Part shown: in pieces, positions 12,765 to 51,048 of the stretch
How positions within the stretch are numbered: position 1 is the stretch's first letter
How the letters are laid out: every line of letters starts with the position of its first letter
Source of the DNA: a virus
IMG/VR virus record: IMGVR_UViG_3300030331_003305
Coordinates: 1-51,048 of that record
Length of the DNA stretch: 51,048 bases
Reading direction: 5' to 3' (one strand)
Program-made: the position numbers and the translations under genes
The notes under the pieces: generated by a model
What the model saw: only the letters and a program-made list of their open reading frames with translations
Databases searched by the model: none
Told to the model about the DNA's origin: nothing

Positions 12765-12956
12765 TCACCTCCTCCTGCTCGGATGCTGGGGTAGTATCTC
12801 CAGCTTCGCGTTCACTCGCTTAGCCTTGCAGGTCAGGCAAGGGTTAAGGTGCGTACATCTCTGCTCTGGGAACATCGACTTGACGCTGCCCTCACACCCG
12901 CGTTGGGCTAGTGTGTCGATAAGTCTTAGCGCATCTACGCCCAGTTCAAGATTCAT
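12765..12956 (-). CDS. Hypothetical small Cys-containing protein
   Basis: 63 residues starting MNLELGVDALRLIDTLAQRG. ATG 12956 lies two bases after the upstream stop; a longer frame to 12995 would overlap that gene. Cysteines in RGCEG, QRCTHLNPCLTCKAKR could form a small zinc site (C-x6-C-x2-C with one more Cys or His), which is inference. Function unknown. Confidence 0.5.
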   Translation of the reverse strand: MNLELGVDALRLIDTLAQRGCEGSVKSMFPEQRCTHLNPCLTCKAKRVNAKLEILPQHPSRRR

Positions 12957-12958
12957 CA

Positions 12959-13417
12959 CTACGCCCTCCACCAGACGGGCTGGTTCCTTTTCCACTTTGC
13001 AAACCCCTTCTCTCCGATGTAGAACGCTCGATAGGCTTGGACCACATCGTCAGTCTTGTACTGGTCTGGCATACACTGTGGCTGCGTCGACCATCCGTTG
13101 TCCTCGATGCAGGAGCGTTGTAGCCTAGTGGCCTCGATAACTTCCTGGCAAGCATGTATCTTACCATAGCGGGCGGTGTACTCCCAGCACAAGGCGAGAC
13201 CGTGTTGGACTAGCCAGTCGAAGTGCTGACGGCTGTCACGGGTCCAGACGGTACACGGATGGTTTTTGTGTGTGGGCTTGTACCTTGCGTATCCACCGTT
13301 GAGCACGATGGCAGTACAAAGCATTTGAGCGCACTCTAGTGGCATCTTGACAATGTGCTTGTCGCACTGTTGCTTGGCTGCGCTGATGGGGTCTGTGTCT
13401 AGTACAAAGATGTTCAT
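12959..13417 (-). CDS. Conserved phage protein of unknown function
   Basis: 152 residues from ATG 13417, which overlaps the upstream TGA (TGATG). The sequence follows a pattern I recall from many cyanophage and T4-like hypothetical proteins: NIFVLDTDPISAAKQQCDKH, then KMPLECAQMLCTA, YKPTHKNHPCTVW, EYTARYGKIHAC, and a closing FAKWKRNQPVWW. The invariant-looking His, Cys, Trp and Arg residues suggest an enzyme, but I know of no proven activity. Similar proteins are sometimes labelled as DNA glycosylases, which I cannot support here. Confidence 0.65.
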   Translation of the reverse strand: MNIFVLDTDPISAAKQQCDKHIVKMPLECAQMLCTAIVLNGGYARYKPTHKNHPCTVWTRDSRQHFDWLVQHGLALCWEYTARYGKIHACQEVIEATRLQRSCIEDNGWSTQPQCMPDQYKTDDVVQAYRAFYIGEKGFAKWKRNQPVWWRA

Positions 13418-13881
13418 CACTCCCCCTCCACCGCCATCGCCACGTTGTCGAAGTCGGATATATCTAGCTCGTCCCAGTCTGCGTAGGCAGGTTCCTCGTA
13501 GACCTCATGTATATCGACGAAATCTTGAGGGTCACCTATGCTACCAGCAGCTGACTCCCACTCGTCTATCCAAGACTGGTACGAAAGCCCTTTCTCACTC
13601 TCCTGCCATTTCTCACTTCGAGCGTCGAAGAACTCTGTCAGAGAGTCTCGCACTTCTTCTGCGAATTCTTCAGCTTCTTCTAAGCAACTTCTATCTAAGT
13701 TGCCTATGTCGCTCAAAAGGTCAGCCCCTAGATTCTCTACGGTGTCGTGCAACTCTTGGTATAGTTCCGCGAGCTTGTCGTTGTATGCGCTCACAAGAGC
13801 GCTGCCTTCTGCTTGGTACTCCTCTAGCTTATCGACTATCTCTCTATGTCTAGCTTGTTGTGATGATGTTAGTTTTTTCAT
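13417..13881 (-). CDS. Hypothetical acidic, helical protein
   Basis: 154 residues, strongly acidic, with long predicted helices (residues 1-100) and an Asp/Glu-rich tail. GAGGA lies eight bases upstream of the ATG. It is the first gene of a transcription unit: the promoter at 13921-13948 and an A-rich leader (13882-13915) precede it. Its acidity could fit a DNA-mimic or inhibitor of a host protein, but that is speculation. Confidence 0.6.
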   Translation of the reverse strand: MKKLTSSQQARHREIVDKLEEYQAEGSALVSAYNDKLAELYQELHDTVENLGADLLSDIGNLDRSCLEEAEEFAEEVRDSLTEFFDARSEKWQESEKGLSYQSWIDEWESAAGSIGDPQDFVDIHEVYEEPAYADWDELDISDFDNVAMAVEGE

Positions 13882-13920
13882 TTGTCTTTTCCTCTTTGGT
13901 TTTGTTTAGTTGGTTTGAAT

Positions 13921-13948
13921 AAGTTAATAGCTTTTCGCGAATAGTCAA
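13921..13948 (-). promoter_or_regulatory. Leftward sigma70-like promoter with TTCGCGAA in the spacer
   Basis: On the minus strand, TTGACT (13943-13948) is followed after 16 bases by TAACTT (13921-13926). The palindrome TTCGCGAA occupies 13934-13941, one base downstream of the -35. It would start the transcript for 13881 and leftward, just after the terminator of the upstream unit. Confidence 0.65.
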
Positions 13949-13956
13949 TAGTTTAT

Positions 13957-13990
13957 TTAAAAGAAAAGAGGGGGTAGTATGTCTCCCCCC
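13957..13990 (-). terminator. Rho-independent terminator
   Basis: Minus strand: a run of G pairs with a run of C (13985-13990 with 13970-13974) around a 10-base loop, followed by TCTTTTCTTTT. It ends the transcript covering the gene-free stretch upstream and sits just before the promoter at 13921-13948, separating two units. Confidence 0.75.
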
Positions 13991-14677
13991 GCTCATGCTC
14001 TTGACCTCTTTCGAGTACACACACCGGCAAAGTTAAACCGTTCAAGAGCTTCCTCCCTGTTCTCGTCTCTCGACACTGAACAGCAAGCAAATGTCTGCGA
14101 GGATGTTCTGCGCTTGGGTCAAGTCGTTGGCCAGTAGACTCAACCCTCCACGCCCTTACAAAGTAACTACTCAGGATAGCCAAGTTGCAAGACCCTTTCG
14201 GGACACCTCCCAGGTTTCCCCAGGAGGTAGAGAGGCTTCCACCTCTCGCAGTTGTATTCTAGGGGCTGCCCCCATTTCCCTGAGACTTTTTGAGTTCTTA
14301 GGGTGGATGCCTAATCCGACCGTTAGGAGGATGAATACACAAGTCCCCCCTAAGCAACTCAACAGTAATGAAGCCCTCTACAGCTTCCCCTCTTGAGTTA
14401 CTCACTGGCAGGTTTTACCTTGGGTAGAGACCAAGTTAGTCCTGCCGCGCTCACAAGTCCGGTGGCAGGAGTGTGTGAACACTCCCCATGTCGGACGCGC
14501 TTCTGCCTATCAACCGTCTACTTACGGTTGAGGAGAGGCCCGGTTAAAAAACCTCTCATTTAAAGACCCGGCAGCTAGGGGTCAGTTAGCGATGTAAAAG
14601 AACAATGATGTCTATGGAGGCATGAAGGGCTCCTTGGTTGTGGCATTTAAGGGAATGTTTTTCTTATGTTCCCTCCC
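13957..14677 (-). ncRNA. Large structured non-coding RNA (candidate, GOLLD/ROOL-like class)
   Basis: About 720 bases without a credible gene between two leftward genes, ending in a terminator. Perfect or near-perfect stems lie one after another (plus coordinates): AGGGAA/TTCCCT 14650-14674, GAGAGG/CCTCTC 14533-14557, CAACCGT/ACGGTTG 14511-14530, GAGTGT/ACACTC 14469-14484, CCTGCC/GGCAGG 14441-14469, CTTGG/CCAAG 14419-14435, AACTC/GAGTT 14356-14399 enclosing GAAGC/GCTTC, GGGG/CCCC 14262-14272, GAGAGG/CCTCTC 14230-14247, ACCTCC/GGAGGT 14205-14228, and CCC-GAAA-GGG (read on the minus strand) at 14193-14202. Size, phage context and stem density recall the ornate large RNAs GOLLD and ROOL. Membership in either family is a guess until a covariance model is run. 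Confidence 0.6.
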
Positions 14678-14683
14678 CCCTCA

Positions 14684-14712
14684 ATTATATAGACGGACTC
14701 GAACCACATCTT
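14684..14712 (-). promoter_or_regulatory. Possible promoter of the structured RNA
   Basis: Minus strand TATAAT at 14684-14689 is a perfect -10. A 17-base spacer places the -35 at AAGATG (14707-14712), which is poor. The spacer contains the tRNA T-arm-like word GGTTCGAGTCC instead of the usual TTCGCGAA. The start would be near 14677. Read-through from the upstream gene is the alternative. Confidence 0.35.
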
Positions 14713-14736
14713 CGGATACGCAATCTGCATTTTTAT

Positions 14737-15132
14737 TCAATCTCTCTCTCCTTCAATGCTTGGCCAGCTAGATGTAAAGGACATCATCGCTTCCAGCTCC
14801 CTATCTCTGTTGTTAATAAAGTTGTCCATCTCGTCTCGACGAGCTGCGTGAACCCCGCCATACATTACCGGATGCTCACTAGGACGTACACACGGGCTAC
14901 CTTTATTTGCACCGCACTTATCGCATGGCACCTCACGGGAAATCACCCTTCGCATTAGTCTTGTAAACTTATCCCCTGGAGTCGTGCCGTGGATGTGGTG
15001 AGGGTTGCCCATAGCCTTCGCAACCTTCAGACCTTCAAGTGCAAACCAGTGGCTGATGAAGTAACTAAAGTCCTCACCTTCCCACTTCAATACATAGTCT
15101 CTACCCGGAGTTCCTTTATCTAAGGACCACAT
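14737..15132 (-). CDS. Small phage protein with a C2HC-type zinc-binding motif
   Basis: 131 residues. The middle has PCDKCGANKGSPC followed by HPVMYGGVHAARRDEM. The C-x2-C...C...H-A-A-R arrangement is the zinc-binding motif I recall from many actinobacteriophage and other phage small proteins. An N-terminal part with several aromatics precedes it. The function is unknown. It is the last gene before the structured-RNA region, and its stop lies within 60 bases of the possible RNA promoter. Confidence 0.65.
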   Translation of the reverse strand: MWSLDKGTPGRDYVLKWEGEDFSYFISHWFALEGLKVAKAMGNPHHIHGTTPGDKFTRLMRRVISREVPCDKCGANKGSPCVRPSEHPVMYGGVHAARRDEMDNFINNRDRELEAMMSFTSSWPSIEGERD

Positions 15133-20437: not shown

Positions 20438-20737
20438 TTTTCACTCTCCAAAGTTTCAAATAAGGAGCTAATCGAAGTTAGCTCGCTATTTCAAACCACG
20501 AGCCCTTGCTATCGGGCTCGTGTTAATGGTTTGAAAGCGTTACCCACCCCCACTGGTATGAATACCAGGGTTGCCTCTATCTAGCCCTACGGGTTCCACG
20601 TAGTGCATGGCGATGATGTGGGATGACCTATCGAATCAACTTACTGGCAGCGTTGACGAAATAGACATTCGGGCGACAATTCCTTATGAGTTATGCTGTC
20701 ATTCCCGTTGTCGTTGGTGAGTGTCTCACCGTCGGAC
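20438..20737 (-). ncRNA. Structured leader of the leftward early transcript
   Basis: About 300 bases without a gene. Hairpins (plus coordinates): GGTGAG/CTCACC 20716-20730 near the 5' end, CTGGTA/TACCAG with TGAA loop 20553-20568, a two-level stem TTTCAAACC/GGTTTGAAA (20489-20536) enclosing CACGAGCCC/GGGCTCGTG (20497-20522), and GAGCTAA/TTAGCTC 20465-20484. TTTCAAA occurs again at 20454-20460, so it could compete for the GGTTTGAAA arm. The last hairpin is about 20 bases from the ribosome site of 20437, which fits attenuation or translational control. Confidence 0.5.
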
Positions 20738-20743
20738 AATTTC

Positions 20744-20772
20744 AATGTAGGTATTGAGGATTCATAGGGCAA
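20744..20772 (-). promoter_or_regulatory. Leftward early promoter
   Basis: Minus strand TTGCCC (20767-20772), a 17-base spacer, TACATT (20744-20749). Upstream, at 20780-20787, stands TTCGTGAA, one mismatch from the shared palindrome. The whole block TTCGYGAAATAATACTTGMC is shared with the divergent rightward promoter at 21181. Confidence 0.6.
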
Positions 20773-20993
20773 GTATTATTTCACGAATAAATATTTAGAT
20801 TGACGAAAACCAAGGTTTAACCGAAACAATTAAAATAAAAAAAAATTCGATTTATTTTTGAGAGAAACCAAAACCGCATGACACGCGCATGCGCGTTACA
20901 TCCTTAAAGGGGAAAAACTGGGTCAATTCTAAATGGGGTACGTCTAGCCATATGCAGAGACGTCTAGCGGTCAAAAATTTGGTGTTTGAGATA

Positions 20994-21037
20994 TGACAGG
21001 TTGTCAGGAAAAGACATCAAAATGTGACAAATTGTCA
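20994..21037. promoter_or_regulatory. Two operator-like dyads TGACANNNTGTCA
   Basis: TGACAGGTTGTCA (20994-21006) and TGACAAATTGTCA (21025-21037) are perfect 5-bp inverted repeats with 3-base centres, 31 bases apart, close to three helical turns. This is the usual form of a pair of sites for a dimeric regulator. The protein is unknown. Confidence 0.55.
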
Positions 21038-21049
21038 AAGGTTAAGGCG

Positions 21050-21131
21050 TTAACGGGTAATTGTTAGCGTTTAACCTGGGGTATCGGCTACCGGGTAACG
21101 GTTAACGGTTTCGGTTACCGGGTAATTGTTA
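21050..21131 (+). repeat. Three iteron-like repeats
   Basis: Copies are TTAACGGGTAATTGTTA (21050-21066), CTACCGGGTAACGGTTA (21088-21104) and TTACCGGGTAATTGTTA (21115-21131), all in one orientation. A shorter word, GGTTAA/TTAACC, recurs about eleven times between 20815 and 21925. Tandem iterons beside A/T-rich DNA suggest an initiator binding region. Confidence 0.6.
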
Positions 21132-21180
21132 CGGTTAATCCTGGCCTTTCGATTAATTGTAACCTTTCGCGAAATAATAC

Positions 21181-21208
21181 TTGACTTTCAAACCGAGAAA
21201 ACTATAAT
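21181..21208 (+). promoter_or_regulatory. Strong rightward sigma70-like promoter
   Basis: TTGACT (21181-21186), a 16-base spacer, then a perfect TATAAT (21203-21208). TTCGCGAA lies upstream at 21166-21173, not in the spacer. The block matches the leftward early promoter over 18 of 20 positions. It reads into a gene-free stretch that ends in a terminator at 21587. Confidence 0.75.
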
Positions 21209-21214
21209 GAGGTA

Positions 21215-21587
21215 TCAGTTAATTTTAACAGGAGGTGCAACACGACGAAAATGCAGGAACAAAGCGGAGAACCGCGTGCCAAAGGTGGGTGAAAATCCAC
21301 AGGGGGTAGTGCGCGTTGAGGTTAGAGGCCCCACCAGCCCCGGTTTAGTGTGCCATGTTGTATATTTCCAGAGGCTCCAAGTACAAATCAATCAAATTTC
21401 CAAGTCGTCCCTCCGGGTAGTAAATCCGCGGTAATAAGACTCCGGTTAAGAAAAATTTACCCTTAATGGGGGGGCTATTTTTTATTAAGTAGGGACCCAA
21501 AAATATAAAAATTGGTTTAGTAAAAAGTCCATTTTTTCTCTTAACCAGATTCCGGTTAAGCCTAAATTTGCTTAACCGAGTTTTTTT
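21215..21587 (+). ncRNA. Short non-coding transcript or attenuated leader
   Basis: Bounded by the promoter at 21181-21208 and the terminator at 21553-21587, about 370 bases. No convincing gene: AGGAGG at about 21230-21236 is too far from the next ATG, and the possible frames encode 13-24 residues. A GTGG/CCAC hairpin occurs near 21283-21300. It may be a small RNA, or a leader whose extension depends on antitermination. Confidence 0.45.
21553..21587 (+). terminator. Terminator with competing upstream arms
   Basis: CGGTTAAGC (21553-21561) pairs perfectly with GCTTAACCG (21570-21578), followed by AG and seven T. The left arm could instead pair with CTTAACC at 21540-21546, and that arm with GGTTAAG at 21444-21450, giving alternative folds. 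Confidence 0.65.
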
Positions 21588-21896
21588 ATATCAAGGAATT
21601 GTAAAGTTTTTTTTTTTTGAAATCTAAAAAACAAGGAGATCGTGGAGTTTTCGCATGTATTGACAAGTCAACACCGTCCCATAATCACCGAAGGACCGTC
21701 AGATTAAACAAATAACCACGATACCACGATTTTCTCAAGTTAGTACAAATTTTTTAAAAAATATATATGAACTTGGAAAAACACATAGATCGTGGTTTTT
21801 TCTTTAATGTGCTGGATGGAACTGGATTATCGCTGCCACATTTTCTTGTTTTTTAAAAAACTACGTGGATGTACAGCGTTTACGGTTAACGGCGGT
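21588..21896 (+). other. A/T-rich gene-free stretch before the late promoter
   Basis: It contains a 12-base T run after 21606, AAGGAG at 21633-21638 followed by a doubtful 21-codon GTG frame (21642-21707), and ATCGTGG repeated in both orientations. AACCACGAT (21714-21722) and ATCGTGGTT (21789-21797, then T) could form a long stem around the palindrome TTTTTTAAAAAA, perhaps a second terminator. No gene is supported. Confidence 0.4.
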
Positions 21897-21925
21897 TTGA
21901 CACAGCCAATTTTTGAACGTAAAAT
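21897..21925 (+). promoter_or_regulatory. Near-consensus rightward promoter for the late region
   Basis: A perfect TTGACA (21897-21902), exactly 17 bases, then TAAAAT (21920-21925, five of six). Start expected near 21932. TTCGCGAA at 21954-21961 lies just downstream of the start, a position where a bound protein would block transcription. Confidence 0.75.
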
Positions 21926-21953
21926 ATGCTTAACCAGAACAATCCCATGAATT

Positions 21954-21961
21954 TTCGCGAA
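21954..21961. promoter_or_regulatory. TTCGCGAA operator-like site downstream of the late promoter
   Basis: An exact copy of the shared 8-bp palindrome, extended to TTTCGCGAAA. It lies about 22 bases after the expected start and 24 bases before the TTG start of the first late gene. Confidence 0.55.
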
Positions 21962-21984
21962 ATGTCTTTTGCCACGGAGTTATT

Positions 21985-22797
21985 TTGCACTCAAAAGAAG
22001 AATACTTGTTTCCGTTTTTGAACTTCTTAAACAAGCATCGACGGAGTAAGCGTAGATCTCCCTATTTAACTCCGGCTACTTGGAAAGTTCCTTACTTCTT
22101 TGGTCCGAACAAACCTCGGACGTTGAAAGAAATCGAAAAGTACAAAGAGTTCAAGCCTTGGATTTTGGATAACCAGCATTATGCCCAGTGGCTTTGGCAA
22201 CCGGAGTCGATGTATGCCCCGCGGGAGTACATGATACCAGAGCTTAAAAAACTTTTGTTAGTCACACCACGGTATTTTGCAGCTCACTTTTTCCCTAGCT
22301 ATTCTTCGGACCTTTTGTCCGACCTTACAGTGTATCAGATACAAAGAATTAGAAAAACCATACCGACCGAGGGTTTGGAGTATCTGACGGCTCACTGCCA
22401 CGGGGTGCCCACAAGATTGATTTGCAACTGGTCTGGTAAGAGTGAAGCAGACATCCATAAATCCGTGTTGGATTGTGTGGGTAGTTTTGCAAACTCGGTC
22501 CCATATTGGATTTGGGCGTACCGTGTGGACATGAGGACTATTCCATTTACTCAAAAAAAGAACAGTCGTTGTAAGTTTGCTAAGAGGCTGCAGATATGGA
22601 ATGATTTAAACGAACGGCCCCAGTTCACAACTTGTAATACTGCTAAGATGCTTTTACCGAACTACCTGCACACACCAGAGGCTTTGAGTAGTTTGCCTAA
22701 AAAGCGCGTTAAGAAACCGATAGATACATTATTGTTATCTTTGTCTCACCATCGGAACCCTCCGGTTCGCAAGTTGAGTAGGTACAAAAGTTTTTAA
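21985..22797 (+). CDS. Hypothetical basic protein, TTG start, first gene of the late region
   Basis: 270 residues starting from TTG 21985, behind CGGAG at five bases. The protein is basic and rich in Trp, Tyr and Pro (PYLTPATWKVPYFFGPNKPR; WILDNQHYAQWLWQPESMY). There is no signal peptide or membrane segment, and I recognise no motif. It precedes the terminase genes, so it might help packaging or late regulation, but this is position only. Confidence 0.55.
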   Translation: MHSKEEYLFPFLNFLNKHRRSKRRSPYLTPATWKVPYFFGPNKPRTLKEIEKYKEFKPWILDNQHYAQWLWQPESMYAPREYMIPELKKLLLVTPRYFAAHFFPSYSSDLLSDLTVYQIQRIRKTIPTEGLEYLTAHCHGVPTRLICNWSGKSEADIHKSVLDCVGSFANSVPYWIWAYRVDMRTIPFTQKKNSRCKFAKRLQIWNDLNERPQFTTCNTAKMLLPNYLHTPEALSSLPKKRVKKPIDTLLLSLSHHRNPPVRKLSRYKSF

Positions 22798-50442: not shown

Positions 50443-50741
50443 AAGACATGAAAGCAAAACGCCGAGCTGCGGTTTTAAAAAGGTTAGGTCTGTCTGGCGT
50501 AAACAAACCTAAACGAACACCGAGCCACCCCAAGAAGTCTCACGTAGTTTACTATAAAGACGGAAACAAAGAGGGCGTTATACGCTTTGGAGAACAAGGT
50601 GCAAGCACTGCAGGGAAACCAAAGTCTGGAGAGTCCGACAGGATGAAGAAGAAGCGAAAGAGCTTCAAGTCCAGACACGGAAAGAACATCGCAAAAGGTA
50701 AATCTTCAGCCGCTTACTGGGCGGATAAGGTGAAGTGGTAA
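50439..50741 (+). CDS. Small lysine-rich phage protein (DUF6321-like)
   Basis: 100 residues, strongly basic. KSHVVYYKDGNKEGVIRFGE and KKKRKSFKSRHGKNIAKGKS followed by SAAYWADKVKW match a small phage family I recall as DUF6321. It starts inside the adhesin's stop (ATGA). It continues the late operon into the basic-protein cluster at 44-1297 once the circle is closed. Function unknown. Confidence 0.65.
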   Translation: MKDMKAKRRAAVLKRLGLSGVNKPKRTPSHPKKSHVVYYKDGNKEGVIRFGEQGASTAGKPKSGESDRMKKKRKSFKSRHGKNIAKGKSSAAYWADKVKW

Positions 50742-50742
50742 C

Positions 50743-50940
50743 ATGCCTTCTAATTCAAAAAGGACTCAAGCCGCATCTAAAGTGAACCAAGCTGGTAACT
50801 ACACAAAACCCGGTATGCGAAAGCGTTTGTTTGAAAAGATAAAGGCTGGAGGTAAAGGTGGAAATCCGGGGCAGTGGAGTGCTAGAAAAGCCCAGATGCT
50901 GGCTAAACAATATAAAGCTGCAGGTGGAGGGTACAAGTAA
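50743..50940 (+). CDS. Small lysine/glycine-rich phage protein (DUF5872-like), allele 2
   Basis: 65 residues, counterpart of 44-244: RKRLFEKIKAGGKGG, then PGQWSARKAQMLAKQYKAAG. This copy is nearer to the family pattern I recall than the left copy (FEKIKAGGKGG rather than FYRIKAGSKGG). It has the same couplings to neighbours. The function is unknown. Confidence 0.7.
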   Translation: MPSNSKRTQAASKVNQAGNYTKPGMRKRLFEKIKAGGKGGNPGQWSARKAQMLAKQYKAAGGGYK

Positions 50941-51048
50941 TGCCCACTCACAAAAGGCGTTTAGCAGCAGCTCAAAAGAGTTTAAAAAAATGGTCAGACC
51001 AGAAATGGCGTACTCCCAGTGGTAAACCGTCTGGAGAAACTGGAGAGG
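50941..51048 (+). CDS. 5' part of the second DUF5872-like gene, cut by the window end
   Basis: 36 codons are visible, starting MPTHKRRLAAAQKSLKKWSD, the same protein as the first 36 residues of 244-507. There is only one base change relative to that copy. The gene is incomplete because the window stops here. Confidence 0.8.

Follow-up and report, generated by a model that had tools for sequence, protein, structure and literature searches.

Results

Layout of the gene-free stretch

The DNA analysed here, called the window, is the whole 51,048 nt of an IMG/VR virus record from an uncultivated tailed phage known from environmental DNA alone. Its ends (1-352 versus about 50700-51048) overlap by ~352 bases at 87.5% identity and L092 bridges both of them; the genome is probably circular or circularly permuted, and its two assembled ends would derive from two strain variants. 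Leftward genes span ~3.2-20 kb and include a replication module with a DNA polymerase, a helicase, a PD-(D/E)XK exonuclease and a primase-like protein. The gene at 12959-13420, in the same replication/early block, is a pyrimidine-dimer DNA glycosylase of the T4 DenV family (PF03013) with 298 relatives in viral contigs; endonuclease VII, considered for this gene, was dropped on the Pfam result. Between divergent gene blocks lies an AT-rich stretch of ~1.5 kb with few reading frames (20440-22000), which carries repeated GGTTAACGG-like words and a good sigma-70-like promoter (TTGACT-16-TATAAT, 21181-21208, plus strand); this is possibly a control or origin region, and a second short RNA may be encoded there.

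Among the leftward genes, ~850 bases without a plausible gene separate a phage zinc-finger gene (PF24623; 14737-15132, minus strand) from the next gene downstream (phrog_4068, function unknown; 13417-13881, minus strand). On the minus strand, a 5' flank and a TATAAT hexamer come first, then ~720 bases densely packed with hairpins, and last a G/C hairpin that carries a U-rich tail. Based on the folding statistics, the count of GNRA tetraloops and the conservation described below, we place a candidate structured non-coding RNA gene of ~720 nt at 13957-14683 (minus strand), the exact ends of which we infer.

The perfect TATAAT reported near 14684 in the initial annotation is present at 14689-14684 on the minus strand, directly followed by a G-run expected to hold the start site, and a consensus scan found no -35 box upstream of it. 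The 5' flank (14690-14741, minus strand), which would include the promoter region, is conserved and carries the word GGTTCGAGTCC, which had been described as T-arm-like. We rejected this word as a tRNA T-arm or tRNA remnant: ARAGORN finds no tRNA gene in the 51 kb, Rfam reports no tRNA at this position, and the flank folds no better than its shuffles. Since the window has no tRNA genes, the argument from tRNA neighbours, made by analogy with GOLLD and ROOL, also fails; a location near tRNA genes is common for GOLLD, not universal. At the opposite end, a G-run/CCCCC hairpin is followed by a U-rich tail (13957-13990, minus strand; -12.9 kcal/mol, z -1.7). This had been called a clear terminator, and both hairpin and tail are indeed there, but the consensus scan misses it and its U-tract is interrupted by C; we describe it as terminator-like. 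The spacer from there to the next gene (13882-13957) contains TTGACTATTCGCGAAAAGCTATTAAC, with TTCGCGAA as a palindrome; this may be the promoter or operator of the downstream gene.

Folding statistics and strand

The region is structured beyond chance. The minus-strand RNA has a minimum free energy of -285.6 kcal/mol, whereas 200 dinucleotide shuffles average -244.6 +/- 7.7 (z -5.35). When 9 kb (10-19 kb) was scanned in 200-nt tiles, the minus-strand tiles starting at 14101-14401 gave local z values of -2.9 to -4.2, while none of the tiles outside 14.1-14.6 kb fell below about -2.4. A second scan, with a composition-corrected model, placed the lowest 5-tile running mean of the whole window in this region, and across 46 phage loci only 19 of 20,558 running-mean positions were as low or lower. 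The third-ranked stretch across the 46 loci was the same RNA in a related 15.6-kb contig, L002. The top two, in L135 and L120, were rejected as stronger RNA structures, since both, when read, proved to be protein-coding tandem repeats: L120:4905-6185 and L135:5304-6164, from phages related via their DNA polymerase, are open frames that encode long tandem arrays of a peptide, (R/W/G)DQV and AARS/AAES, and such frames imitate strong RNA structure in fold scans.

Five GNRA tetraloops are predicted in the window and in L002 alike, against a mean of 0.22 and a maximum of 2 in the shuffles (n=200); loops of this kind are typical of natural RNAs having tertiary contacts. In relative terms, the minus strand is the more strongly folded of the two (z -4.83, against -2.59 for the plus strand), many of the helices contain G-U pairs that are possible solely in the minus-strand RNA, and the orientation of the -10 box and the terminator agrees with that strand.

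Predicted architecture

All the features named in the initial annotation, which described the minus strand as built of hairpins, are present, including the CCC-GAAA-GGG hairpin (14202-14193) and the AACTC/GAGTT stem around GAAGC/GCTTC within 14404-14351. All elements below are on the minus strand. In both sequences, the 5' end of the RNA, directly after the -10 box, is predicted to pair with the 3' end in a 7-bp helix, P1, formed by GAGGGGG (14676-14682) and CCCCCUC (13968-13974), with P 0.97 in the window and 0.95 in L002. As the likely start site lies 6-8 bases beyond the -10 box, within the G-run, P1 is perhaps shorter than 7 bp. The 3' arm of P1 doubles as the 3' arm of the terminator hairpin, and the CCCCC thus has two alternative partners, the local G-run and the 5' GAGGGGG. 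P1 and the terminator would be mutually exclusive and could form one after the other in time.

P1 is followed by a weakly paired linker (14560-14648) and by an 8-bp hairpin at 14510-14531. Next come a two-tier hairpin with GUCCG/CGGAC around GGGAGUGU/ACACUCCU (14457-14496; P 0.93-0.97 in both sequences), a GGCAGG/CCUGCC hairpin with an ACUAA/GUAAAA internal loop and the apical loop UCUCUAC at 14430-14424 (14407-14446; P 0.94-1.00), and a 12-bp helix around a GAAGCU/GGCUUC hairpin whose loop is GUAGAG at 14381-14376 (14351-14404). The 3' half is predicted to hold a hairpin with a GGAA tetraloop (14230-14247), an 11-bp hairpin with a GAAA tetraloop (14204-14229), the CCC-GAAA-GGG hairpin (14193-14202), and a two-tier hairpin of CUUGCAA/UUGUAAG and UGGCUAU/GUAGUUA (14155-14191; P 0.97-0.98). 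These are followed by a 10-bp hairpin with the loop UACUGGCCAAC (14116-14146; P 0.70-0.88), a hairpin with a GAGA tetraloop (14053-14087), and an 8-bp helix, GCUCUUGA/UCAAGAGC, around two hairpins, one of which has a GAAA tetraloop at 14012-14009 (13997-14049; mostly P 0.92-0.98 in both sequences, one 0.87 in L002).

The loops of two neighbouring hairpins, CUCUAC (14429-14424) and GUAGAG (14381-14376), have perfect 6-base complementarity (chance P 0.022), and are a candidate for a kissing contact, which may be intra- or intermolecular. The palindrome UGGCCA in the loop UACUGGCCAAC is a possible dimer contact; alone it is not significant, palindromes being common by chance.

Comparison with the single relative

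The RNA of L002 is 97% identical to that of the window, with the homology beginning in the 5' flank at 14741 and running to the terminator. Of the 721 bases compared, 12 are substituted (1.7%), whereas the three downstream genes (12765-12995, 12959-13420 and 13417-13881) together have 24 synonymous changes at ~252 sites (9.5%). The RNA thus changes ~5x more slowly than the synonymous sites downstream (Fisher P 1.9e-7; 12/721 vs 24/252), which implies that it is constrained at the nucleotide level above the local background. Most upstream genes diverge more, with dS values of 0.38-0.74 among those that align well, and the zinc-finger gene is missing at L002 3280-3537, precisely to the 5' boundary of the RNA, a gene exchange beside the RNA. 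The RNA and its 5' flank therefore behave as a unit. The TATAAT hexamer is kept in L002 despite a change of the preceding base, and the terminator tail there is longer (CUUUU repeats). Two one-base indels, one at about 14533 and one in the 3' G-run, break any frame that crosses them and argue against a shared reading frame.

Conservation is lower in the 5' part than in the 3' part: the first ~170 nt hold 7 of the 12 substitutions, and five of the 12 lie in the linker, clustered at 14604-14615. Two others, 14524 U>C and 14517 A>G, are at partner positions of the hairpin at 14510-14531, where they exchange a U-A for a C-G pair in a compensatory manner. Pairing is also kept by 14375 G>A and 14213 C>U, the latter turning a G-C into a G-U pair; two further substitutions are in loops, and 14345 G>A is in a lower-confidence helix. 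For helices at P>0.9, no pair is broken and three are kept, one of them by the compensatory exchange (joint P 1e-4 under random placement of the same substitutions). When the cut-off is relaxed to P>0.5 or 0.7, the substitutions break 2-3 weak pairs, a count that is nothing unusual (P 0.26-0.35). As this count is ordinary at the looser thresholds, the substitution pattern is support rather than proof. The covariation across homologues called for at the outset yielded one compensatory pair from a weak comparison, that with the one relative present in the searched collections; with just two sequences, 97% identical, covariation is suggestive only and the structure is a thermodynamic one.

Homologue and family searches

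L002 remained the sole homologue after searches of viral contigs, the genomes of bacteria and archaea, phages, plasmids and 44 further phage records. Phages and plasmids were searched with blastn, and viral contigs as well as bacterial and archaeal genomes with two six-pattern scans in which stop-free frames of the RNA served purely as DNA probes; neither approach added to L002. A gapped motif scan gave no profile matches; among the matches listed, the apparent excess with the right spacing was mostly due to unrelated sequences that recurred in several copies. Over the relatives of the replication module and their whole records, neither nhmmer nor two covariance models found a further homologue. 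An 870-nt unannotated gap in MW202816, a distant DNA polymerase relative, was rejected as a counterpart, as it contains long open frames.

The initial annotation had raised membership of GOLLD or ROOL, to be settled with Rfam covariance models, and no family matched. In a 1.1-kb search, none of 4227 Rfam families matched at E<=5, including group I and II introns, tmRNA, RNase P, OLE and HEARO. GOLLD (RF02032) and ROOL (RF03087) gave no match at the gathering cut-off or at E<=5, nor at E<=10 in family-specific searches; of these last, the ROOL search is the weaker negative, because its control genomes were also silent.

Discussion

These findings are most probably explained by a stand-alone phage gene whose product is a large structured non-coding RNA of ~720 nt and which brings a -10 box and a terminator of its own. 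The large ornate non-coding phage RNA of the initial annotation is borne out by the folding, the GNRA content, the purifying selection at the nucleotide level, the frame-breaking indels and the pair-preserving substitutions. The attributes that describe a large structured phage ncRNA as a kind, namely gene-free length, non-random structure and nucleotide-level conservation, are all found here. The RNA would be transcribed leftward with the early and replication genes from the TATAAT at 14689-14684, would start in the G-run that follows, and would end at the U-rich terminator at 13990-13957. As supported by computation, it would fold into about 18 hairpins in several domains, with its ends joined by P1 and with five GNRA tetraloops, and the candidate contact between 14429-14424 and 14381-14376 could hold domains together.

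The RNA resembles GOLLD, ROOL and the orphan RNA of phage ICP1 in kind, with membership not demonstrated. GOLLD and ROOL are phage and prophage RNAs of this size that appear to act by forming nanocages (PMC12286853). GOLLD is a large phage and prophage RNA of hundreds of nt with an elaborate fold and a 3' region more conserved than the 5' (PMC12286853), as here; the present RNA differs in having no covariance-model match and no nearby tRNA genes, and an oligomer is here a tentative proposal. ROOL, also phage-borne and complex in structure, has a length close to that of the present RNA, 659 nt in the example that was solved (PMC12286853); the differences are again the missing match, in a family search with silent controls, and the missing tRNA island. 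ROOL is further characterised by a homo-oligomeric nanocage and a very abundant transcript, which for the present RNA would be predictions. Vibrio phage ICP1, which has no tRNA genes, encodes an orphan ncRNA of ~800 nt between gp139 and gp140 that is the most abundant ICP1 transcript (PMC7567579). This is the likeness in size, orphan status and setting, although the two have no detectable sequence similarity, and expression is shown for ICP1 while the RNA here is predicted. The ICP1 RNA also lacks an Rfam match at the gathering score, and the fold of its ORF-less region is weaker (z -2.42, with a single GNRA loop). OLE (RF01071) is a large ornate homo-oligomer-forming RNA (PMC12286853), but bacterial rather than phage, and no OLE match was obtained.

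It is improbable, though worth weighing, that the RNA is a strongly diverged GOLLD or ROOL beyond the recognition of the Rfam models. The same size, the phage setting, the less conserved 5' part, the flexible linker and the end-joining helix are all what such a relative would have; the failure to match either model even at E<=10, weaker for ROOL, and the absence of tRNA neighbours speak against it. Slightly less probable again is a long cis-acting leader or attenuator of the gene at 13417-13881 and the early operon. The RNA lies directly upstream of this gene on the same strand, and the alternative partner of the terminator arm, P1, allows a terminator/antiterminator switch to be drawn. However, the usual cis-acting leaders are far below ~720 nt, a separate spacer of ~75 nt with its own TTGACT-like box stands between terminator and gene, and the strong conservation reaches beyond the terminator, across the middle and the 3' half. 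We think it very unlikely that the region is a DNA-level element, such as an origin, packaging or recombination site, that folds by happenstance: it is gene-free and close to the replication genes, but we saw no obvious iterons on reading it through, the many G-U pairs and the GNRA loops have meaning solely in a minus-strand RNA, that strand is also the better folded one, and the AT-rich stretch at 20.4-22 kb is the better origin candidate. A decayed protein gene or a chance structure is least credible of all, for although open frames reach 119 codons, the slow rate relative to synonymous sites, the one-base indels and a fold far outside the shuffles oppose it.

Returning to the stand-alone RNA gene, its function can only be proposed tentatively. 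The size, the phage setting, the closed ends, the GNRA loops, the loop-loop contact and the flexible linker are features of RNAs that function by virtue of their folded body, and it is therefore possible that this is an architectural RNA which forms a compact RNA-only particle, perhaps a homo-oligomer as in GOLLD and ROOL, and which would be abundant during infection. The linker (14560-14648) would then be flexible, and either exposed or enclosed in the particle. The remaining probability is shared by an RNP with bound protein, a host-factor sponge and a ribozyme unrecognised by Rfam. A bolder reading, which we hold to be rather unlikely, is that this RNA is the first member of a new class of large ornate phage RNAs with no relation to GOLLD or ROOL, and that it arrived independently at an RNA-only particle through GNRA and loop-loop contacts. 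As a new large phage RNA it is a strong candidate, and we do not claim a proven class.

The large ornate RNAs of phages fall, to our knowledge, into just a few classes, none with an established function. To these the present candidate would add a compact, well-bounded molecule of a defined ~720 nt that has neither tRNA neighbours nor a sequence-model match to those classes. The combination of GNRA count, fold z and rate relative to synonymous sites can detect other orphan RNAs for which many homologues are not at hand. If the candidate is confirmed, it would seem that such RNAs have arisen more than once, and that annotation based on families misses them.
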